Assembly: GCA_903847605.1 (NCBI GenBank)
Contig: CAINED010000056.1
Coordinates: 1-64,000, forward strand
Reading direction: 5' to 3'
Source of the DNA: an uncultured Hyphomicrobiales bacterium
GTDB taxonomy: Bacteria > Pseudomonadota > Alphaproteobacteria > Rhizobiales > Beijerinckiaceae
DNA: 64,000 nt
Shown here: piece by piece, positions 45,447-56,730 of the stretch
How the letters are laid out: the number at the start of each line of letters is the position of its first letter
How positions within the stretch are numbered: the first letter of the stretch is position 1
Program-made: the position numbers and the translations under genes
Notes under the pieces: model-generated
Told to the model about the DNA's origin: nothing
The model's database searches: none
The model's input: only the letters and a program-made list of their open reading frames with translations

Positions 45447-46472
45447 TCAGGCCCGTTCGCCGAAATTACTCCGCCAGACGGCCTCGAGTTTCGAGGCCTG
45501 GGCGGCTGTGAAACCGGGCTTGCCGGAAACAGAGGCAATTTCCTCAAGTTGCTCCATCGAGGAAAATCCGCCGAGGGCCACAGTGACCGAGGGATGATCG
45601 AGAACGAAGCGGAATGCCGCTTGCGCCATCGTCAGATTGTTTTCGCGGGCAAGAAACGACAAAGCCATGGCCCGGGCGGCATTGACGCGCGCCGCTTCCG
45701 TTAGGGGATCCTGTTGACGGGCGAGCGGATGACGCGCGGCCCCCGCAATAGCCTGATCGGTCAGGAACCCGCCGGCCAGAGGCGCATAAATGGCTGCGCC
45801 CGCGCCGTGCCGTGCGGCGGCGGAAATGACATCGCCGAAATCGAGCCTGGTTCTCAGCCCTTCGGGCACGGCGCGTCCGGCAGATGGATTCAACAGGGTG
45901 TAGGGCACGTTGATCAGGCTGAAATAGCTGGCGCCGAGGAGTTCGCGGACCTCTTCACCATCGTTGCCGCGGCAGATGAAGCCGAGATGGCGCACTTTGC
46001 CGTCGCGCTTGAGACGTAGCATGCCGTCGATCGCGCCACCGGGTTCGAGATAGTCCGCAATCCCAAGGTGTGTGTACACCTTGCCCTCAAGTTGGGGCTG
46101 GGCCCTTGTGGGGCCGTTGTGAATCTGGAGGACGTCGAGATAGTCCACGCCGAGGCGTTTCAGGCTCGCTTCTGTCGAGCGCACGACATGACCTGCGATG
46201 TCGCCCAGATTCTCCGCGCGAATCTCGACCTTGGAGTTGAGGAGCGGACGATGTTTCAGTTCCTGCAACACGCGGCCCAGATTGGTTTCGGCGAGGCCGT
46301 CACCGTAATCGGGCGCATTGTCGAAGTAATTGATGCCCAGTTCGAGCGCGCGCGCGACAATCTGGGTCTGCTCCCGGAATTCGCCGCGCAGCATCAGGCC
46401 GGCATTGCCGCCGCAGCCAAAGCCAATTTCGGAAAGTTCGAGGCCGGTCGCGCCAATGCGATTGTATTTCAC
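45447..46472 (-). CDS. Aldo/keto reductase
   Basis: A 341-residue oxidoreductase. The catalytic Asp and Tyr lie in NYFDNAPDYGDGLAETNLGR; the usual catalytic Lys position reads LLNSKVEIR, and LDVLQIHNGPT carries the His. C-terminal VTVALGGFSSMEQLEEIA binds the cofactor phosphate. It resembles L-fucose or galactose dehydrogenase-like members of the superfamily. It lies 138 bases downstream of the selenoprotein gene on the same strand and may be cotranscribed with it. Confidence 0.85.
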   Translation of the reverse strand: MKYNRIGATGLELSEIGFGCGGNAGLMLRGEFREQTQIVARALELGINYFDNAPDYGDGLAETNLGRVLQELKHRPLLNSKVEIRAENLGDIAGHVVRSTEASLKRLGVDYLDVLQIHNGPTRAQPQLEGKVYTHLGIADYLEPGGAIDGMLRLKRDGKVRHLGFICRGNDGEEVRELLGASYFSLINVPYTLLNPSAGRAVPEGLRTRLDFGDVISAAARHGAGAAIYAPLAGGFLTDQAIAGAARHPLARQQDPLTEAARVNAARAMALSFLARENNLTMAQAAFRFVLDHPSVTVALGGFSSMEQLEEIASVSGKPGFTAAQASKLEAVWRSNFGERA

Positions 46473-46610: not shown

Positions 46611-48245
46611 TCAGCGCCACGCATCCACCGACACCGTCGATGTCTTGAACCGCGTACCCTCGTAGATGCGCCATGCGCCCTGCGTCTGGCCGCCGGTCAC
46701 GACGATGTTGATCTCGTGCGGCTGATGCACCTTCACGAGTTCGTCGGGCGCGGCCTTCAGATTGCTGGCATAGGGCTCAACGCCCGCGACCGCGAGCGGA
46801 TGGATGAGGGTCTGCACCCACATCTCGTTCCAATATTCGCTCGCCGGGAGTTTCGCGTTGTCGGCCATCCAGTGGATCAGGTCCATGCTCGTCTTGAAGC
46901 CGCGATCGACATAGAGCTTGGCGACGATGGGATCCATGATGAGCAGGGGTGACTGCCGCGCGTCGGCGGCAGTCAGACAGCGCAGCATCTTGCCTTCCCA
47001 GTGCTCGCGCGGGCCGAAGCCCGACGTCATATAGCGCCCGCCCCGGAAGACCGTGACGGTCGAATCTGTCGGCTTGAAGCCGTAGCGCACGTGCATGGGA
47101 TCCCACGGGCTCGCTTCTTCGTTCTCGGCGAAGACGAAGCTGTAGGAGAGCGGATTGCCGAGCGTGCCCATATAGGTGTCGTCGGGAACCGACCCGCCCT
47201 GCAGATTTGCGGAGAGCAGGTTCCAGGCGCGGCCGATGGTGACATTGGCGTGCGAATAGGGGCCGGTCGCGCCGATCCCGGTGTTCATGCCGATCTCTTT
47301 GCGCACGGGGCCGTTGACGACGCCGATGCCCGCGAACGAGGTCGTACTGGAGTTACGGGCCGTGATGCCGCTCGACGCCATGGCAAGGATGACCGGGAAA
47401 TATTCCGGCTTCGCGCCCGCCATGACAGCATTGACCGCGACCTTCTCGACGTCGAATTCCCAGTCCTCGCGGAACGCCGTCGGGCTCAACCGCCCGACGA
47501 TGCGGTCGCGCGGAATGCTCGTGCCTTTCAGCATGGCTTCCACGCGCTCTTCCGTCGGCAGGTTGATCGGCAGGTAGTCGGTCCAATGGTTCTGCTCGAA
47601 CAGCGCCCGCAGATTGTCTTCGGTATCAGGCTCGAGCAGGTGCGTCTTCGGCCTGTCGAAGCTCAGACCCTTGAGGTCGTTGTCATTGAGCGGCGTCGTA
47701 AGCCCCTCGATGATCTCCTGCATGAACGGGCGTTTGCTGATCGGGTCCGTGCCTTCGATATAGGCGCGAAGATCGGAGGGCGACTTATCGACGAGCGGTT
47801 GCGGCACGAAGGCCTGGCGTGCCGTCGGCATGCCATTGGCGGTCGCGACCGACTTCGCGAGACGCGCGAACACATGCGTATGGATGGCGATTGCGGGGAT
47901 GCCCGCCTTTTCCAGTTCCAGGGTCAGCCCCACGACCGTGGGGCTACAGGTGCTTCATAAGCCTACGCCGAGAATGGCGGCGTCGCCGTTCGCGACCACC
48001 TTGGCGCGCATTTCTGGATCGTCGACCCAGCTTTCGCGAGGCTTGATCATAGGCGTCTTCACGGAGGGAAGGTGCGTGGCGAACCAGTCCTTCATCTCAT
48101 TCATGAAGACTTCGGAATTGTCGAACAGGCAATCGACGAGATAGACCGTCTTGCCTTCGAGATTTTGGAGGCGCTGCGCAAGCCGCTTGCCGGCCACCTT
48201 GGGCGCATAACCGCGCGGATCGTAGACTGCGATTTTGCCGGACAT
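46611..48245 (-). CDS. UGSC-family selenoprotein, selenocysteine at an in-frame UGA (Sec97)
   Basis: One 544-residue protein results if the TGA at 47957-47955 is read as selenocysteine; a usual gene caller would give a 96-residue fragment and a separate downstream piece starting at a GTG. Both pieces are in one frame with seven sense codons between the TGA and that GTG. The residues around it are G-V-G-L-U-S-T-C-S, matching the U-x-x-C redox motif of the UGSC (seleno)protein family, here U-S-T-C rather than U-G-S-C. A perfect hairpin follows the UGA (see the separate entry), and selA, selB, selC and selD lie within 10 kb. GGAGGAG precedes ATG 48245. The large C-terminal region is conserved-looking but uncharacterised. 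The enzymatic role is unknown; a thiol/selenol redox or hydrolytic role in the adjacent catabolic cluster is conjecture. Read-through itself is inferred. Confidence 0.88.
47926..47957 (-). promoter_or_regulatory. UGA plus bacterial SECIS element of the UGSC gene
   Basis: On the coding strand the UGA (47957-47955) is followed after nine bases by AGCCCCAC, the tetraloop GGUC and GUGGGGCU: a perfect 8-bp stem (47945-47938 with 47933-47926). The loop begins 17 bases after the UGA. This spacing and a G-U-bearing apical loop are what bacterial SelB needs; GGUC also occurs in the loop of the E. coli fdhF SECIS. Confidence 0.85.
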
Positions 48246-48372
48246 GGACTCCTCCGAAATTTTCATCAGTGTTGCGCCCGCCGGGCCGCGCCGTCAAGCT
48301 CTTCGCACAGGCCATTTGCCCGCGGAAGTGGAACGAAATAGGCTCGTTCCCGGGAGCGTTAGAGGGGCCAAA

Positions 48373-49422
48373 ATGGGTTGCTTTACTTCGAGAATGGCTG
48401 TTTTCCCTTCGGGCGGGAGTCGTAGCAAGTTGCTGGCAGGTCTCGCCGGCCTTGCCGCATCCGTGGCGCTTATCTGGGGCTCGGCACACGCGCAATCGCC
48501 ACTGAACTTTACCTTCGCGCTCATCGGCGACCTTGGCTACTACCCTGAGCAGGAGCCGTGGGTCGCAAATGTCTATGCGGACATCAACAGGGACAATGCA
48601 CTCGCATTTGCCGTTCATCTCGGCGATCTCTCCCGCCCCGTAAGCGCCTGTGAGGACGCATTTCGTCGCAAGCGGCTGGCGGAATTCAATGCCATCAATC
48701 ATCCCGTGATTTTCACGCCCGGTGACAACGATTGGACTGACTGTCACGAACCCGACTTGAAAAATGGCGATCCGCTGGAGCGCCTCGCCGACGTGCGCGC
48801 GCTTTTCTTCCCTGACGAACAAAGCCTCGGCAAGCGCAAGCTGCCATTGCTGCGACAGAGCCGCGATTCTGCTTTCGCGAGATATCGCGAAAACGCACGC
48901 TGGGAAATGGGTGGCGTGACCTTCATCACGTTGCATGTCGTCGGCACAAACAATGGGCTTGGCCGCAAGCCCGAATGGGATGCGGAGTATGAGGAGCGAA
49001 ATGCCGCCAACCTGATGTGGCTGCGTCAGGGATTCGCCCATGCGAGCGCCAACAAGAGCCGCGCTGTTGTGGTGCTGCAACAGGCCAATCTGTTCCCACA
49101 CATAACGCCGAATGCCGGTCCCGAAGGAAAGCCCAGCGGATATGCAAGCCTGCGCGACGCGCTTGAGAAAGAAGTCAACGCGTTCGAAAAACCTGTCGTG
49201 CTCGTTCACGGCGACAGCCACTTCTTCCGCATCGACAATGCCTATTCCAAGCGTCCGCCTAGAGGAAAAGGCGGCGACCCAGCGCCTGAAAACTTTACGC
49301 GTGTGGAAACATTCGGCACGCCAAACCATCACTGGCTGCATGTGACGGTGGACCCGCAAGACCCAAATGTCTTCACGTTCCGTCCGCGCATTGTCCAGGA
49401 GAACATCATCAAGCGAAACTAG
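48373..49422 (+). CDS. Exported metallophosphoesterase (calcineurin-like)
   Basis: A 349-residue protein with N-terminal signal sequence (SKLLAGLAGLAASVALIWGSAHAQ) and metal ligands in FALIGDLGYYPEQ, HLGDLSRP, FTPGDNDWTDCHE (the GDND motif) and LVHGDSHFFRID (GDxH). The phosphoesterase fold is clear; it may hydrolyse extracytoplasmic phosphoesters. GAGGGG precedes the ATG. It is divergent from the UGSC gene with 127 bases between the starts and converges with the thioredoxin-reductase-like gene. A link to selenium metabolism is not evident. Confidence 0.82.
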   Translation: MGCFTSRMAVFPSGGSRSKLLAGLAGLAASVALIWGSAHAQSPLNFTFALIGDLGYYPEQEPWVANVYADINRDNALAFAVHLGDLSRPVSACEDAFRRKRLAEFNAINHPVIFTPGDNDWTDCHEPDLKNGDPLERLADVRALFFPDEQSLGKRKLPLLRQSRDSAFARYRENARWEMGGVTFITLHVVGTNNGLGRKPEWDAEYEERNAANLMWLRQGFAHASANKSRAVVVLQQANLFPHITPNAGPEGKPSGYASLRDALEKEVNAFEKPVVLVHGDSHFFRIDNAYSKRPPRGKGGDPAPENFTRVETFGTPNHHWLHVTVDPQDPNVFTFRPRIVQENIIKRN

Positions 49423-49431
49423 CTACGTCCG

Positions 49432-50349
49432 TTACCCAACCCAGGCTCCATTCTGCACATAGGCACGCGCCGCGGAGGCCGCCTTTTCGCCGTCCTCTGC
49501 TGAACCCGCAGCCCGGAAGGCTGCGCCGCTGCGCACAGTTCCGGCTGCGAGAAGGCCCGGAGCATTGGTCCGCATGTTGTCGTCGACCTCTATGGCGCCG
49601 CCGGATTCGAGTGAAACCACGTTGCTGGCAAGGGCGGAATTCGGCGTCATGCCGATGAAGACAAAGACCGAAGCACAGGAAATCTCCTCGCCATTGGCGA
49701 GCCTGACACCGGTGACTCCATTGTCGCCGAGCAATTCCGTCACGGTGGTATTCGTTCGCACGGATACCTTGGGGTTTCCGCCGACTTGCTGCTGAAAATG
49801 CGGTTGTGCGCGTAGCGCCTCGCCGCGTGTGACGATGGTGATCCTTGCTACCGGACCCAGCAACGCCAAAGTCTCCTGCAATGCGGAGTCGCCGCCGCCG
49901 ACAACGACGACATCCTTGCCGCGCAGCAGGGGTGCATCGCAGCTCGCGCATTGGCTGATGCCGCGTCCTTCGAAATCGTCTTCCCGCGGCAGGCCGAGTT
50001 TCTTCAGGCTGGTTCCCGTTGCGAGGATGACGGACCTGGCGGAGTAATCGGCGCCGCCGGCCTTCACGGTCCATTGCGCGCCATCGGTGGAAATCGCGTC
50101 TGCTTCCAGCATTTCGAATTGCGCGCCGGCGTCGGCGGCTTCCTCCTGCGCGATGGGGCCGAGGTCATAACCTGGAATCCCCTCGGGCTGCGCAGGCCAG
50201 TTCTCGACATTCTCGATGGAGATCAGATGTCCGCCCAGCGTCATTCCTGTCAGGCAAAGCGTGGCCAGCCCTGCCTTGGCGCTTTCGCGTGCGGCGGTAA
50301 GCCCGGCGATCCCGCCGCCGATGACGATGACATCGAATTGCTGCGCCAT
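49432..50349 (-). CDS. Thioredoxin-reductase-like FAD-dependent oxidoreductase
   Basis: A 305-residue class-II pyridine nucleotide-disulfide oxidoreductase. FAD site [23 protein letters not shown] (residues 5-27), redox-active pair C134-A-S-C137 in [13 protein letters not shown](P)H site [19 protein letters not shown], and the C-terminal FAD segment [29 protein letters not shown]. It is less than 35% alike by eye to canonical TrxB, which normally has CATCDG. GGAGGG precedes the ATG at 50349. It is divergent from selA and lies between the two selenoprotein genes, so it is a plausible electron donor to one of them (inference). Confidence 0.85.
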
Positions 50350-50438
50350 ATTCCCTCCATCAACATGATGCCCGTGCGGTGCAGGGTCTACAGCATGTCG
50401 CCATTGCAGTCCGGCTTCCGCCGGGTCTAAATGAACGG

Positions 50439-51869
50439 ATGGAGGCAAACGCGCAACAGCGGCAGGGCATGGCTGCCCTGCCTTCGGTGGACAGGTTGAT
50501 GAAGACGCCTGTCCTGTCTGCGCTCGTCGAGCAGCATGGGCGCGCGCCCGTGACAGACGCCGTCCGGTGGGAGCTGGACCGGCAACGCCGCGCCATTGCG
50601 CAGGGCAAGGTGGAGGCTGCGGCGGAAGCCGAGATCGTTGCGAGCATCGCTGTGCAACTGGAGCGAGCGATGACGCCGAGCCTGCGCCCGGTCTTCAATC
50701 TCACCGGCACGGTGCTGCACACGAACCTCGGCCGCGCGCCGCTGCCGCAGGAGGCGCTTGACGCGATCGCTGCCGTCTCGCGCGGCGCATCCAATCTCGA
50801 ATTCGATCTCGCGACGGGCAAGCGTGGCGATCGCGACACGCATCTCGAAATCCTGCTTGCGCAACTGACCGGCGCGGAGGCTGCGACTGTCGTTAACAAC
50901 AATGCCGCAGCGGTGCTGCTGACGCTCGCCGCCATCGCGCCACGCAAGGAAGTCATCGTCTCGCGCGGCGAACTCATCGAAATCGGCGGCGCATTCCGGA
51001 TGCCCGACATCATGACGCGCGCCGGCTGCAGGTTACGCGAAGTCGGCACGACCAATCGCACGCACGAGAAGGATTATCGCGACGCTATCAATGCGCGCAC
51101 GGGCGCGTTGATGAGCGTCCATACCAGCAATTATGCGGTTCAGGGATTTACTGCATCCGTTGACGAAGCGCGCATAGCCTCGATTGCACACGCGGCAGGA
51201 TTGCCCTTTCTTGTCGATCTGGGCGCTGGCGCGCTGGTTGATTTCGGCCCCTATGGATTGCCGCACGAGCCGACAGTCGCGGATACCGTGGCGGCAGGCG
51301 CCGATATCGTGACATTCAGCGGCGACAAGCTGCTGGGTGGCCCGCAGGCCGGCCTGATTGCCGGCCGCCGCGATCTCATCGATAAAATCAAACGCAACCC
51401 GCTCAAGCGCGCTCTGCGCTGCGACAAGATGACGATTGCCGCGCTCGAATGCGTCTTGCGCATGCATCTCGATCCCGGACGTCTTGCCAGCCGCCTGCCT
51501 GCGCTTACGCTTTTGACGCGAAAGCAGGGCGATATCGCCGCGCAGGCCCATCGTCTCGCCGGGGCCATGTCCGCTCTATTTGGCGCAAGCGTCGAGGTTT
51601 CCGTCGAGGATTGCGTCAGCCAGATCGGCAGCGGATCGCTCCCGGTGGAAACTTTGCCGAGCGCAGCCATCGTCCTGCGTCAGGCGCAACGCAAGAAGAG
51701 CAGCGGCGCCTGGCTAAATGCGCTCGCGAAGGCATTGCGCGAATTGCCTGTGCCGGTCATCGGCCGCATCGAGCGCGATGCCTTGATTCTTGACCTGCGC
51801 TGCCTGACCGACGAGCAGGCTTTCTGCGCGCAATTGCCGAAGCTGTCGCTCGAAGCCGGCGCGTCATGA
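50439..51869 (+). CDS. selA: L-seryl-tRNA(Sec) selenium transferase
   Basis: A 476-residue PLP enzyme that converts Ser-tRNA(Sec) to Sec-tRNA(Sec) with selenophosphate. [30 protein letters not shown] is the N-terminal tRNA-binding domain. [18 protein letters not shown] and [16 protein letters not shown] follow, and the PLP lysine lies in [18 protein letters not shown]. The start at 50439 is the best of three ATGs; 50469, with GGCAGGG upstream, is the alternative. The stop overlaps the selB ATG by 4 bases, so the pair is translationally coupled. Confidence 0.96.
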
Positions 51870-53779
51870 TCGTCGCGACTGCAGGCCATATCGATCATGG
51901 CAAGACATCTCTGGTAAGAGCGCTGACCGGCGTCGATACAGACCGGCTGCCGGAAGAAAAGCGCCGCGGCCTCACCATCGACCTTGGCTTCGCCTATCCC
52001 AAGGGCAATCAGTCCATCGGTTTCGTCGATGTACCCGGGCACGAACGCTTCGTGCGCAACATGATTGCCGGCGTGACGGCGATCGACTGCGCGATCATCG
52101 TCATTGCGGCCGACGACGGCCCGATGCCGCAGACATCAGAACATCTCGCCATTCTCGATCTGCTCGGCGTCAAGCGCGCCGCGGTCGCGCTCACGAAGAT
52201 CGACAAGGTTGCGCCTGAGCGCATTGACGTGGCGAGCGACGAGATTTCTTCTTTGCTGGAGGATACGGCGCTTGCGAATGCGCCAGTATTTCCATTGTCG
52301 ACATTAAACGGAGACGGCGTCGGCGCGTTGAAAGCCTGGCTCGACGAGGAAGCAAGGACTACGCAGGCGCGCGAGCGCGGGGCCGGGTTCCGCATGGCTG
52401 TCGATCGCAGTTTCGTCATAGATGGTGCAGGCGTCGTCGTCACTGGCGCCGTGGCTTCCGGCAGTGTCGAGCCGGAACAGCGGCTCGTCCTGTCGCCCGA
52501 GGGGATCGAAGTGCGCGTGCGCGGCATCCATGCGCATAACCGCAAGGCGCAACAGGGCAGCGCAGGCGAACGCTGCGCCATCAATGTCGCCGCCCCCAGA
52601 TTGTCGCTCGATCAAGTTTATCGGGGACAATGGCTTGTCGCACCCGAAATCGCGAAAACGACGATGCGTTTCGATGCACGCATTCGACTGTTGCCGAGCG
52701 AGACGCGCGCCTTGCGCCACTGGACGCCCGTCCATCTTCACATCGGGGCAGCTGATGTTCCTGCCCGCGTGGCGCTGCTCGAAGGCGCGCCGCTGGAGCC
52801 CGGCGGCGCTGCGCTTGGGCAACTCGTGCTTTCGTCTCCGGTTTCGGCGCTTTTTGGCGACAGGTTCGTTTTGCGCGATCAATCGGGACGCCGAACTATT
52901 GGCGGCGGCATCGTGATCGATCCCTTCGCCCCTTCGCGTGGACGCGCGAAGGCGGAGCGCATCGCGATGTTGCGCGCGCTTGAGCCGGCGAAGATCGCGG
53001 AGGCGCTGGCAAATGGCTTGAATGTTTCTCCGTCAGGTTTTGAGCTCGGCGCTTTCTTGTGCGCGTGGAATGTCTCGTCAGATGAGGCGAAAGAACTTGT
53101 CGCGCGCCACGACTTGCGCACGGTTGGCGACGGTTTCGGTAAGCTCGCCTTTACGCAAGCAGCATGGAATTCGGCGCGGATTGGACTTGGCCGCGCCATA
53201 GCCCAGAGCAGGTCTCCCAACGAGGGACTGACGAAAGACGCTGTTGCACGGGCGACAAAGCCGCGGGTTCCGGGTCCGGCGCTCGAGGCTTTGCTCGCGG
53301 ACCTGATCGCACGGGGCGAAATCGAATTTGCCGGCGGCATGTACCGGCCACGCGGCGCAACGATCCAACTTGAACCGCAGGACGCGGCTCTCTGGGCGAA
53401 GCTTCAGCCTTTACTCGACAACATTCGCCCGCCTACCATTGCGGAACTTGCTGCCGAGTTGAAAGCAGATGCGCGCCCCATCGAACGTCTTCTGCAGAAG
53501 GTTGCGCGCATGAATCTTACCGTGCAGATCGCGCCAAACCGCTATTACTTGCCCGATCGCTTGCGCGAGCTTGCGAGCTTTGCAGAAATGGTTGCGCAGG
53601 AAACGCCCGGCGGCCTCGTGAGCATTCGCGCCTTTCGCGACAAGTCCGGCGTCGGACGTAATCTCAGCGTCGAGGCGCTGGAGTTCTTCGACCGGCTCGG
53701 CTTTACAGGCCGCGCAGGCGAGCATAGGCGTATTGTCAAGCCGCGCGATCAGGTGCGCTGGGCGCGCGGCATGCAATAG
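51866..53779 (+). CDS. selB: Selenocysteine-specific translation elongation factor
   Basis: A 637-residue GTPase that brings Sec-tRNA(Sec) to the ribosome at a SECIS. EF-Tu-like G domain: [16 protein letters not shown] (G1), [10 protein letters not shown] (G2), [15 protein letters not shown] (G3), TKIDKV (G4). Two beta-barrel domains follow, then about 250 C-terminal residues of winged-helix repeats that bind the SECIS hairpin (for example [20 protein letters not shown]). Its length is usual. It directly precedes the tRNA-Sec gene. The presence of the full SECIS-binding part supports a working UGA-decoding system. Confidence 0.96.
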
Positions 53780-53825
53780 AGCGTGTACCGAAAAAGTTGC
53801 AGACTTTTTCGATCAGGACACGCTC
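53779..53825. repeat. Palindromic intergenic repeat between selB and selC
   Basis: GAGCGTGT (53779-53786) is complementary to ACACGCTC (53818-53825), with inner arms GAAAAAGT and ACTTTTTC. It has the same architecture as the unit at 17891-17940. Its first base is the last base of the selB stop codon. It could terminate selAB transcription, leaving the tRNA with its own promoter. Confidence 0.6.
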
Positions 53826-53838
53826 CGGTTTATAGTCT

Positions 53839-53933
53839 GGAAGGGCAACGTCCCCGGTGGGGCGCCCGGTCTTCAAAACCGGTGAGGGGCGTTCGACGTC
53901 TCTGGTGGGTTCGACTCCCACACCCTTCCGCCA
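53839..53933 (+). tRNA. selC: tRNA-Sec (anticodon UCA)
   Basis: A 95-base tRNA with encoded 3' CCA. The anticodon TCA is at 53873-53875 within stem CCGGT/ACCGG. Features special to tRNA-Sec are present: an extended acceptor-T domain (GGAAGGG pairing with CCCTTCC), a long D stem, and a long extra arm (GAGGGGCGTTCGACGTCTCT). T loop GTTCGACTC is normal and G73 precedes the CCA. The position just after selB agrees with its role as substrate of SerRS, SelA and SelB. Confidence 0.96.
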
Positions 53934-53943
53934 GATCCTGCGA

Positions 53944-54420
53944 TCACTTCTTTTCCATTTCAGCCATGCGCGTGAGCTGACGCACCAGCTCTTCGGGAGC
54001 CATGCGCCCCACTGGCCCGCTCGCGTAAAGCGAATGGATCACCTTGCCATCGCGCCCGATCAGAAATTCGGCGGGCTGCATGTTGTTGCGCTGCTCGCCC
54101 CACCATGCGCCGAGACGCGTTGCATCCTCGCGCGTGACGCCGAATGCGACAGGAAATCCGACATCCTTCGCGAACTCGTGGCCATGCTCTTCATCGTCCG
54201 CGCTTGCTGCGATGATCTTGGCGCCCAGCCTCTCAAGTTCTTCTCGGTGCTTTTCCATGCCAGCCAACTGCCGGCGACAATAGGGTCACCAATGGCCGCG
54301 ATAGAAAATGGCGATGAGATACTTCGAGTCGATGTCGGCGGGAATGGAGAAACGCCCGCCGCCGACAAGGCTGAGAACCAGGGGCGGAAAAACGTCGCCG
54401 GAATAGAGTGGCTTCGTCAT
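53944..54420 (-). CDS. Peroxiredoxin-like selenoprotein, selenocysteine at an in-frame UGA (Sec45)
   Basis: A 158-residue AhpC/TSA-family protein if the TGA at 54288-54286 is read as Sec; without read-through only a 44-residue fragment or an N-terminally truncated piece from a TTG would be annotated. The sequence around it is FYRGHW-U-PYC-RRQL: Sec replaces the first Cys of the peroxidatic W-C-P-x-C motif and Cys48 remains as the resolving partner. The rest (KIIAASADDEEHGHEFAKDVGFPVAFGV...FLIGRDGKVIHSLY) is a normal thioredoxin fold. ATG 54420 encodes MTKPLYSGDVFPPL. A hairpin fitting a SECIS follows. The gene converges with selC, 11 bases away, and follows selD on the same strand, 54 bases downstream of its end, so it may be cotranscribed with it. 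Likely role: peroxide reduction. Confidence 0.9.
54259..54288 (-). promoter_or_regulatory. UGA plus bacterial SECIS element of the peroxiredoxin gene
   Basis: On the coding strand the UGA (54288-54286) is followed by GCCGGC (54275-54270), loop AGUUG (54269-54265) and GCUGGC (54264-54259), giving a 6-bp stem with one G-U pair. The loop begins 16 bases after the UGA and contains the GU dinucleotide expected for SelB binding. The position is nearly the same as in the UGSC gene. Confidence 0.75.
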
Positions 54421-54474
54421 GGGTCAATCGCCTGTTTGAGTGGCATTGCGGCATGTTGGCATGAGGCGGACCGG

Positions 54475-56730
54475 CTAATCAAACGATTTGATGGCGATTC
54501 TCGATCCGCTCTCCTTCGCCGCGACAGTTCGGCCTATGACAACGGCGCAGTCGAAACCGGCCTCGCGCAGGGCGGCGACGCATTGAACTGCCAGATCAGG
54601 CTGCACGCCGGCAAGCAGTCCGCCCGCCGTCTGCGGATCGAAGAGCATTGCCAGAGCGAAGTTCTTGCTTCGCTCCAATTCGCAATCCAAGAACGCGGCA
54701 AGTTTGGCATTTTCCGGATGCAGCGTGCTGAAAATACCGGCCTGCATGGCCTCCAGCGCGCCCGCGAGCGTTGGCAGGGTCGCGAGGTCGATATGTGCGG
54801 AAAGCCTGGACGCGCGCAGCATGTCCATGAGGTGGCCCGCAAGGCCGAAGCCGGTCACATCCGTGCAGGCTGTTGCGCCATTGCCGATGAGAATTTTGGC
54901 GGCAGCTTCATTCGATTGCAGCATAGAGTGGATCGCTGCATATACATCCCGACCGCGCGCCTTTGCACGCATGTCCGCAGCGAGAAGCGCGCCGGTTCCG
55001 ATAGCCTTGGTCAATATCAACGCATCGCCTTCGCGCAATCCGTTCTTGCGCAGAAGCATTTGCGGATCGGCGAGGCCGGTCAGAGAAAAGCCCAGAGTCG
55101 TTTCTGCGCCCTCGGCCGTATGGCCGCCTGCAAGTGCAGCGCCCGCAGCGTCGAGTGTTTCAACGGCTCCTTGCATCATCTGCATGAGATCGCGTGCGAC
55201 GATGGATTGCGAGTCCGCGGGCAAGGTGACGATCGCCATGGCGGCCTGCGGTTCGCCGCCCATGGCATAGATATCGCCGAGCGCGTGATTGGCTGCAATC
55301 TTTCCGAAAAGCCAGGGATCGTCGATCATGGCGCGAAAGGCGTCGACGGTCTGTACGGACACCTTGCCATCGGGAACTTTTATGACCGCAGCATCGTCGA
55401 GCGCTTCCAGACCCAGAAGCACATCATCGCGTTTAGCGGGGTTCATCTGCGCCAGCGCCTGAGAGAGCGTTTCGCTGCCGATCTTCGCGCCGCATCCGCC
55501 GCAACGCATTTCCTCGTCAACGGGCGGAGGGCGTATTGCTTCGCGAAGGCGCGAAAGCAATCCGGGCTTTCCCATGCCATCAGGCAAATCGTTGAATTTC
55601 GCCATGAAGCGGCGGTCGATGGAATCTTTCCAGCGCCAGACCCAATCGCCCGCAATGATCCAGTTGCCGCGAGAGGCGATTGCTGTTTTCGATCCGGCCG
55701 CCAGAATTTTGAGGAACTTGCGCTGCGGCCGATATGCTTCGAGCGTCTCGCCGCGCAATCTGCGGCGAAGATTGCGGGTCAGCACCGGTCCTTGCCTGAC
55801 TGCAAAAACGCCTGCCTTCGGGCGGGGATCGTCGATCATCGTGGCGACATCGCCTGAAGCGAAAATATCGTCGTGCGATGACGATTGCAGCGTCTGCCTG
55901 ACGGCGATGAAGCCCCCGCCATCGGTGGCGAGCCCGCTTGCGCGCGGCCATGGCGGCGCGCCTGCCGCCGTCACCCAGAGAATCTCGTCGGCTTCGTAGC
56001 GACCGCCCTTCGCCGTGCGCAGAATTCCACGTTCCAGCGCGGTCACATTCTCTTCGCTATGGAGATGGACGCCGCTCTGCCGAAGCAACCGCCTGCAATG
56101 ATCGCGTAGCACAGGTGACTCTGTGGGCAAGAGCTCGCCGCGCGAGAAGAGGTGGAACTCGCTCTTGCAGTCCGGCGCTGCCTCGGCGAGCGCATGCTTG
56201 ATCGCCAGCAGAAGTTCGAGGCCGCCCGCGCCGCCGCCAACCACCGCGATACGAAATTTGCCGCGACGCGCGAGCGCCCGTTCGCGCAGCCCTTCCCAAT
56301 GCGCCAGAAATTTGGAGATGGGCTTTACGGATATTGCGAATGCGGCGACGCCCGGCACGTCGTCCGCGCGCGGCGTCGAACCGGTGTCGATTGAGAGAAG
56401 ATCGTAGCCGAGCGCCGGCCGTGCCTTGAGGCGGATTGTCCGCGCGCCGGGGTCGAGACCCTCAGCTTCCGCGCATAGGAATCGCGCGCCGGCCCAGCGG
56501 CACAGGCGCACAAGGTCGATATGCGTATCGTCGAACCCATAGTGACCTGCGACAAGGCCCGGCAGCATGCCGGAATAGGGCGTCATCGGATCGGGCGAGA
56601 CCAGCGTCACCCGCACGCCCGGCTCGGGCTTCATGCCGAATGACTTGATGACCTGCACATGAGCGTGGCCGCCCCCGAGGAGGACGAGATCTTTTTCGAT
56701 TTTTGACCTGGATTGCATCGGCGCGATCAT
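54475..56730 (-). CDS. selD: Fused NDH-2-like flavoprotein and selenophosphate synthetase
   Basis: A 751-residue two-domain protein. Residues about 1-375 are a pyridine nucleotide-disulfide/NDH-2-like domain with an FAD site DLVLLGGGHAHVQVIKSFG, a second nucleotide site RIAVVGGGAGGLELLLAIKHAL and a C-terminal FAD segment DDIFASGDVATM. Residues about 405-751 are SelD (selenide + ATP to selenophosphate), starting EEMRCGGCGAKIG with Cys413 at the catalytic position and Lys416. ATP-binding LLGLEDDAAVI-like motif is present as LGLEALDDAAVIK, with later GGHTAEGAE. This fusion is known in several bacteria; the flavin domain may reduce selenium for SelD. A second ATG at 56718 is possible; neither start has a strong ribosome-binding site. 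Confidence 0.93.
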   Translation of the reverse strand: MIAPMQSRSKIEKDLVLLGGGHAHVQVIKSFGMKPEPGVRVTLVSPDPMTPYSGMLPGLVAGHYGFDDTHIDLVRLCRWAGARFLCAEAEGLDPGARTIRLKARPALGYDLLSIDTGSTPRADDVPGVAAFAISVKPISKFLAHWEGLRERALARRGKFRIAVVGGGAGGLELLLAIKHALAEAAPDCKSEFHLFSRGELLPTESPVLRDHCRRLLRQSGVHLHSEENVTALERGILRTAKGGRYEADEILWVTAAGAPPWPRASGLATDGGGFIAVRQTLQSSSHDDIFASGDVATMIDDPRPKAGVFAVRQGPVLTRNLRRRLRGETLEAYRPQRKFLKILAAGSKTAIASRGNWIIAGDWVWRWKDSIDRRFMAKFNDLPDGMGKPGLLSRLREAIRPPPVDEEMRCGGCGAKIGSETLSQALAQMNPAKRDDVLLGLEALDDAAVIKVPDGKVSVQTVDAFRAMIDDPWLFGKIAANHALGDIYAMGGEPQAAMAIVTLPADSQSIVARDLMQMMQGAVETLDAAGAALAGGHTAEGAETTLGFSLTGLADPQMLLRKNGLREGDALILTKAIGTGALLAADMRAKARGRDVYAAIHSMLQSNEAAAKILIGNGATACTDVTGFGLAGHLMDMLRASRLSAHIDLATLPTLAGALEAMQAGIFSTLHPENAKLAAFLDCELERSKNFALAMLFDPQTAGGLLAGVQPDLAVQCVAALREAGFDCAVVIGRTVAAKESGSRIAIKSFD

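Follow-up and report, generated by a model that had tools for sequence, protein, structure and literature searches.

The UGSC family of selenoproteins was described in 2008 from marine metagenomes, in which these proteins are among the commonest selenoproteins and occur as 255 selenocysteine (Sec) and 21 cysteine forms; a fusion of the UGSC domain with a domain named Unknown_1 was reported in the same study (PMC2398784, in part). We found no function for UGSC proteins in the available portions of the literature, including a 2026 review (PMC13188914, in part), and no link of the family to thioredoxin reductase or GrdB in the portions bearing on that pairing. Much more has been described for GrdB, GrdF, GrdH and PrdB, the Sec subunits of glycine, sarcosine, betaine and D-proline reductases, whose known members are re-reduced by the thioredoxin system or by PrdC (PMC3091704, in part). 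Glycine reduction proceeds via thioredoxin reductase and thioredoxin, and for D-proline reductase it was proposed that the Sec of PrdB attacks the alpha carbon of the bound substrate, after which a Cys of PrdB forms a selenide-sulfide that is re-reduced by PrdC (PMC3091704, in part). In the Sec-using Alpha- and Betaproteobacteria of a 2006 study, formate dehydrogenase was the sole selenoprotein (PMC1794560, in part), and it is regarded as the primary role of Sec in those groups (PMC8124441, in part).

Here we describe a locus in a stretch of 64,000 nucleotides (the window; contig CAINED010000056.1, assembly GCA_903847605.1) from an uncultured Hyphomicrobiales bacterium of the Beijerinckiaceae. 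For one of its genes, comparison of sequences makes read-through of a stop codon, giving a selenium-containing protein, very probable. The protein is a new member of the UGSC family known since 2008, and both the family and a fusion are already in print; the interest of the locus lies in its functional leads, the selenoprotein itself joining a known family. The features of the locus are collected in Table 1.

Table 1. Features of the UGSC locus and the neighboring Sec machinery, in positions of the window
Feature	Position	Strand	Remarks
Aldo/keto reductase, directly downstream of the selenoprotein gene, same strand	45447..46472	-	PF00248 E 3.7e-37
UGSC-domain gene, probable selenoprotein	46611..48245	-	544 aa including Sec97, stop codon within the coordinates; PF24696 E 6.9e-25, residues 7-161
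C-terminal domain, residues 166-544	46614..47750	-	Without Pfam match; in other loci, a partner fused to UGSC domains or adjacent to them
N-terminal UGSC domain, residues 1-165	47751..48245	-	Predicted flavodoxin-like; U97-x-x-C100 starts the helix after strand 89-95
Predicted SECIS hairpin	47926..47945	-	8-bp stem; GGUC loop at 47934-47937
In-frame TGA, probable Sec codon U97	47955..47957	-	TGA in 80/80 kept relatives; Cys codon in the fourth copy of the genome
Open frame between reductase and selenoprotein	48235..49422	+	Unmatched in Pfam and NCBIfam; overlap of the listed start with that of the selenoprotein
Thioredoxin-reductase-like flavoprotein, CASCD motif, proposed electron donor	49432..50448	-	True start probably inside the listed frame
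selA	50379..51869	+	TIGR00474 595 bits, cut-off 268
selB	51866..53779	+	TIGR00475 389 bits, cut-off 242
tRNA-Sec (selC), anticodon TCA	53839..53929	+	RF01852 78 bits, gathering 47; ARAGORN
selD behind a fused pyridine-nucleotide oxidoreductase domain	54475..56730	-	TIGR00476 305 bits, cut-off 125; Pfam

Reading frame, in-frame TGA and SECIS hairpin

The initial annotation held that a TGA joins two open stretches at a U-S-T-C motif, and translation bears this out: read from 48245 to 46611 on the minus strand with TGA as U, the frame runs for 544 residues, contains exactly one internal TGA (47957-47955) and has the junction GVGL-U-S-T-C-SPTVVGL. By eye, a ribosome-binding sequence, GGAGGAG, stands just 5' of the ATG at 48245. 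Under translation table 11 the same region is divided into a 103-residue frame up to the TGA, starting at an ATG 21 bases farther upstream, and a 440-residue frame after it. Annotation does go wrong at such genes, as had been predicted: for a TGA-containing UGSC homologue of Acidovorax p2-T1 (L125:8001-8291), the record shows a hypothetical CDS of 291 bases, the length of the longer homologue up to the TGA.

The perfect 8-bp stem with GGUC that had been noted nine bases past the TGA is present in the sequence, the hairpin being AGCCCCAC-GGUC-GUGGGGCU. On folding, a further U-G pair is formed and the energy is -18.2 kcal/mol over 53 nt; the loop lies 17 nt from the UGA. Bacterial SECIS elements are expected to have an apical loop of 3-9 nt with G in the first two places, an upper stem of 4-16 bp, a UGA-to-loop distance of 16-37 nt and a minimum free energy of at most -7.5 kcal/mol (PMC13188914, in part); with its 4-nt loop, G in both places, 8-9 bp and the spacing and energy just given, the hairpin fits these rules. 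Taken alone, the hairpin, which had been described as a perfect SECIS, is weak evidence, near chance level. An equally good folding was obtained in 18 of 200 shuffles. The window has 78 TGA codons flanked on each side by an open stretch of 60 codons or longer, and among these the hairpin of U97 ranks third by energy. The hairpin by itself is unremarkable, the single sequence could not have given certainty, and it is conservation that carries the claim.

Scanning the genome collection yielded 161 confirmed relatives, the best 80 of which were kept for comparison. The codon at position 97 is TGA in all 80, and the matched frame is otherwise free of stops. The motif is U-S-T-C in 72 of them and U-S-S-C in 8, or U-S-T-C in 73 of 81 with the window included (a pattern gave 62 and 7, respectively, and the remaining 11 were taken from its listing). 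By title, the hosts belong to Pseudomonadota, Rokubacteria, Chloroflexi and Actinomadura, with one Acidobacteria metagenome-assembled genome (MAG); some MAG titles look like mislabelled species, and we rely on the taxonomic spread and not on single names. Viral contigs gave 172 pattern matches, with no relative among them.

The loop is GGTC in all 81 sequences (80 relatives and the window), and the third bases of the P102 and V105 codons are paired in every one (G-C 64, C-G 15, A-T 1 and T-A 1), while the residue at the V105 position is Val, Ala or Ile. This synonymous stem pair is maintained by compensatory change among four pair types; in a control with Pro and Val/Ala codons three apart elsewhere in the same genes, 235 of 598 codon pairs had complementary third bases. 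A quick protein tree requires 7 changes of pair type, and at least 5 of these are forced by well-supported branches (G-C group). The V104 codon is GTC in 81/81, compared with 52% of Val codons elsewhere in the same genes. For the 8-bp stem as a whole (66 distinct rows), cells changed on both sides number 24, versus 7.1 in shuffles, and three of five measures (cells paired, cells with double changes and covariation score) are higher for the stem than in any of the 500 shuffles; on the other two, pairs with double changes (3) and further pair types (8), the stem does not surpass the shuffles. Versions of the stem slid along the sequence have fewer cells paired and a lower covariation score, and two of them also have 3 double-change pairs. 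Counted from the loop outward, the pairs are formed in 80, 67, 81, 81, 66, 60, 62 and 46 of the 81 sequences, and 15 relatives from Rokubacteria and Chloroflexi retain just the four loop-proximal pairs. The codon following the Sec TGA (47952-47954 in the window) encodes Ser as AGC in 76 sequences and as AGT in 5, with no TCN codon (n=81); this is perhaps a read-through context.

Family membership, copies in the genome and Sec machinery

Residues 7-161 match the UGSC family of Pfam (PF24696) at 88.6 bits, above the gathering cut-off of 25, and all 52 members of our alignment match it at E values up to 10 (best 4.5e-28). The NCBIfam UGSC equivalog, NF041046, scores 62.8 bits against a cut-off of 125, so the protein is filed under PF24696 and not under NF041046. 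Matches to UGSC are rare, occurring in 5 of 398 genomes of the window's phylum, its own genome included. The literal U-G-S-C is replaced in the window by U-S-T-C, with UxxC retained. The initial annotation called this variant unusual, which is correct with respect to the wider family: of 20 further places counted once each (24 loci, four of them seen twice), 17 have [U/C]-G-S-C. The fused subfamily regularly has U-S-T-C (73 of 81) or U-S-S-C (8 of 81). The expectation that homologues carry Cys or Sec at position 97 holds for most: of the 20 places, 11 have Cys and 7 have TGA, and the 2 with Met are remote homologues with M-G-T-S, in which the second Cys is also absent. These two, from Sporomusa termitida and Vibrio europaeus plasmids (L023 and L126), lie near aconitase X and DUF126 genes and are possibly non-redox members.

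The genome contains four copies of the gene: the window copy (U-S-T-C), C90 (U-S-T-C), C21 (U-S-S-C) and C78, which has C-S-T-C with a Cys codon; the other three are 69, 65 and 51% identical to the window copy. The three Sec copies have the same hairpin in common. Within codons 97-107, 9 of 10 comparable columns are identical in all three, versus 135 of 273 over the whole gene, and the longest run of identical codons among them, of 8, ends at residue 43, outside the hairpin. When a covariance model of the 81 hairpins was used to search the 5.34-Mb genome (150 of 10,094 first-look candidates were scored), three places had E values below 1e-11, and they were exactly the three Sec-type copies; the next match had an E value of 0.035. 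The Cys copy C78 (L015:8876-10537, plus strand) falls on the tree with Rokubacteria and Chloroflexi Sec forms, on a long branch, and lies near a periplasmic-binding-protein importer and a molybdenum hydroxylase.

Altogether, the relatives, the stem covariation and the Pfam match support the earlier proposal of a 544-residue UGSC-family selenoprotein with a bacterial SECIS. The opposite reading, that the TGA is a genuine stop, created by sequencing error or left in a pseudogene whose two open stretches are unrelated or dead, is extremely improbable: the hairpin alone is within chance and most of the 78 comparable TGA junctions in the window presumably are chance, but the TGA in three of the four copies and in all 80 kept relatives with their otherwise open frames, the SECIS covariation and the covariance-model matches at the three Sec copies together refute it in our view.

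The fused selD lies near selA-selB-selC, and all four are within 50379-56730 of the window. Comparison supports the decoding of the UGA at residue 97 as Sec, directed by the putative SECIS and carried out by this adjacent machinery. The Sec trait is patchy: of 99 genomes searched in the family (own included), 19 have a SelB scoring above its cut-off, and the genus's 3 other members on the list have none. In this genome, 16 matches to the formate dehydrogenase alpha model were found, several of them partial and some probably related enzymes, and none contains a TGA or other stop. The genome departs from the picture given in the available portion of the 2006 study (PMC1794560): the TGA is found in three UGSC genes and in 0 of 16 formate dehydrogenase matches.

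Partner domain and linked flavoprotein

Searching Pfam with residues 105-544 returned nothing except the tail of UGSC. A PDB sequence search with the single window protein found no relatives, and a PDB profile search found just two weak matches to VPS28 (E values of 0.46 and 2.4). The C-terminal domain recurs: it stands beside the UGSC domain in 5/5 loci (four genomes) fetched by the UGSC model alone, and in 18/18 further loci, a set that is biased since all were fetched by the fused protein. These comparisons support the view that the window protein is a fused form of a two-part unit, made of a UGSC domain and a C-terminal partner domain. No Cys is invariant in the partner domain among the 52 members (the best column, 460, has Cys in 29), which argues against a PrdA-like pyruvoyl group derived from Cys; outside U97 and C100, the best-kept Cys is C39 (49 of 52 members).

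The structure of the N-terminal domain was predicted with a pLDDT of 90. Its Foldseek matches are weak, with TM scores of 0.3-0.5 by query length among the matches listed, the best of which are a NagZ-type hexosaminidase, flavodiiron proteins, a flavodoxin-like domain and PTS IIB; thioredoxin is absent among the best 50 of 1,716 matches. In the predicted model, the fold of the Sec domain looks flavodoxin-like rather than thioredoxin-like. A thioredoxin-like fold was supposed for UGSC proteins in the marine study of 2008 (PMC2398784, in part), and our comparison does not support it. With the full-length model, TM scores by query length were at most 0.20 among the matches listed, and these were not used for naming.

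The flavoprotein of the window lies 1.2 kb upstream of the selenoprotein gene on the same strand, with a frame on the opposite strand in between. By tblastn (1e-8, best hit per locus), a flavoprotein of this kind was found within 1.9 kb in 42 of the 80 loci, always on the same strand (42/42); it is within 250 nt of the UGSC gene in 38 loci, in 31 of which it is upstream within 150 nt. We used this count instead of clustering neighboring open reading frames (ORFs), in which antisense frames were included and the reductase of the window itself was missed. The flavoprotein of L024, a close relative, lies 24 bases before the selenoprotein start. By the same search it was not found in 38 of the 80 loci, including 13/13 Rokubacteria (8 of the 80 loci have at most 1 kb of upstream DNA), and there was no match to it near the other three copies of this genome. 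The motif CA[ST]CD is present in 30 of 32 called copies, and the other two calls look like wrong frames. Against the thioredoxin reductase model TIGR01292, the window frame 49432-50448 scores 257.4 bits, below the cut-off of 343.45, with the CxxC motif present. Gene orders elsewhere include trxB-trxA-partner-UGSC in Arthrobacter ERGS1:01 and trxB-TctC-SDR-partner-UGSC in Variovorax SRS16. In Neorhizobium galegae (L022:10648-11545), a Cys-form copy is directly followed by a reductase-like gene, which tblastn showed in two pieces. These neighbors suggest that the selenoprotein is a selenium-dependent reductase fed by the linked flavoprotein.

Beyond the flavoprotein, the neighborhoods vary (CoA transferases, aconitase X, ComA-like, DUF1989, MetE-like and TctC genes), and importer genes are found near several UGSC copies. 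TctC receptors are very numerous in such genomes, and therefore their proximity means little. Deducing the substrate from gene context was rejected, the neighborhoods being too varied.

A UxxC motif and a thioredoxin-reductase-like neighbor would suit any thiol redox protein, and the window protein might thus be a general thiol-disulfide oxidoreductase or peroxidase of thioredoxin-like fold, serving redox defence rather than catabolism. We consider this unlikely: the predicted domain appears flavodoxin-like, every locus tested carries a large conserved partner domain, and importer genes lie near several copies.

Remote likeness to GrdB and PrdB and the proposed chemistry

After UGSC, the NCBIfam models closest to the window protein are GrdB, GrdF, GrdH and the general B-selenoprotein model, all sub-threshold (E values of 0.03-0.13, residues 78-155). 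Sub-threshold matches among the 52 members were to GrdF (11), PrdB (6), GrdB (4) and GrdH (2), with a best E value of 0.011, and seven unrelated models matched one member each. For two divergent plasmid UGSC proteins, PrdB was next-best, also sub-threshold (E values of 0.02 and 0.075); the NifU match of the Arthrobacter protein (E 0.022), close behind PrdB (E 0.02), was counted as chance. No match to PF07355 (GRDB) was found in the genome itself or among the 52 scanned members, which places the protein outside that Pfam family. In the GrdF match, which spans the same length of protein and of profile, U97 corresponds to profile position 350 of 435; in C. sticklandii, Sec is residue 350 of 436 in GrdB and 352 of 440 in GrdH (PMC3091704, in part).

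Profile-profile alignment with hhalign against six PF07355 relatives (six of seven were used, L138 being dropped as below the cut-off, and no clostridial GrdB is among them) gave a score of 42.1 and a probability of 59-61% for the fused set, and 40.4 and 77% for the domain set. It aligns U97-x-x-C100 with C-P-x-C, placing U97 on the first Cys. Maxima in 100 column shuffles were 33.0 (fused set) and 25.3 (domain set), and maxima against 33 other neighbor families, which come from the ORF clustering with antisense frames and include some that are not real genes, were 26.1 and 26.7. On these sequence grounds, kinship of the UGSC Sec domain with GrdB and PrdB is likely.

We put at roughly 60% the probability that the locus combines Sec decoding with a fused two-part selenol reductase of GrdB/PrdB-like action, re-reduced via the linked flavoprotein. 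What is observed is the motif, the arrangement of the genes and the remote similarity; the chemistry is drawn by analogy. The selenoprotein would work like the Sec subunit GrdB or PrdB, with another partner domain and another reductase. The C-terminal domain would hold the substrate, perhaps a small imported organic acid or related compound, and the U97 selenolate would be the nucleophile attacking it between the two domains. The attack would leave the product reductively cleaved or reduced and would create a selenenylsulfide between U97 and C100, and electrons from NAD(P)H would then pass through the flavoprotein (49432-50448) to reset U97 and C100, directly or via thioredoxin.

Several points stand against the proposed reductase: the GrdB and PrdB matches are sub-threshold, 38 of 80 loci show no linked flavoprotein over the sequence covered, the partner domain has no invariant Cys, a frame on the opposite strand intervenes in the window, 15 relatives have four-pair stems, and two remote homologues are without U or C at both positions. 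One could also accept the selenoprotein and its redox pair as real and assign to Sec some other carbon-bond chemistry than cleavage of the Grd/Prd type, for example dehalogenation or desulfurisation. The varied neighborhoods are in keeping with this, but GrdB and PrdB are the nearest known families by profile, and we find such chemistry improbable, placing it after redox defence. The linked reductase, the recurrent partner domain and the remote link to GrdB and PrdB together make UGSC function testable.

Compared with the UGSC family as described (PF24696, NF041046 and PMC2398784, the last in part), the window protein is alike in its domain match, in Sec or Cys at the same place and in the UxxC pair, and differs in that the fused subfamily has U-S-T-C or U-S-S-C where the family has U-G-S-C. 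A UGSC fusion is also in print there, with Unknown_1, which may or may not be the C-terminal domain of the window protein. The linked gene resembles thioredoxin reductase (TIGR01292) in its FAD and NAD(P) domains and CA[ST]CD redox motif, and differs in its sub-cut-off score and its operon-like place beside UGSC genes. With GrdB, GrdF, GrdH and PrdB (PF07355, TIGR01917 and TIGR04483), the window protein shares UxxC or CPxC at the same place, followed within a common stretch by LE..GI.TV, and the profile similarity is in register; on the other hand, the similarity is sub-threshold, and the partner domain is another one, without an invariant Cys. Tentatively, and with rather less confidence than we place in the reductase itself, the UGSC domain, the partner domain and the CxxC flavoprotein may represent, next to glycine reductase and D-proline reductase, a third branch of reductive-cleavage enzymes based on a selenol that spans Pseudomonadota, Chloroflexota and Actinomycetota (as well as Rokubacteria, where no reductase is close) and for which, rather than for formate dehydrogenase, the Sec machinery of this bacterium would have been retained.
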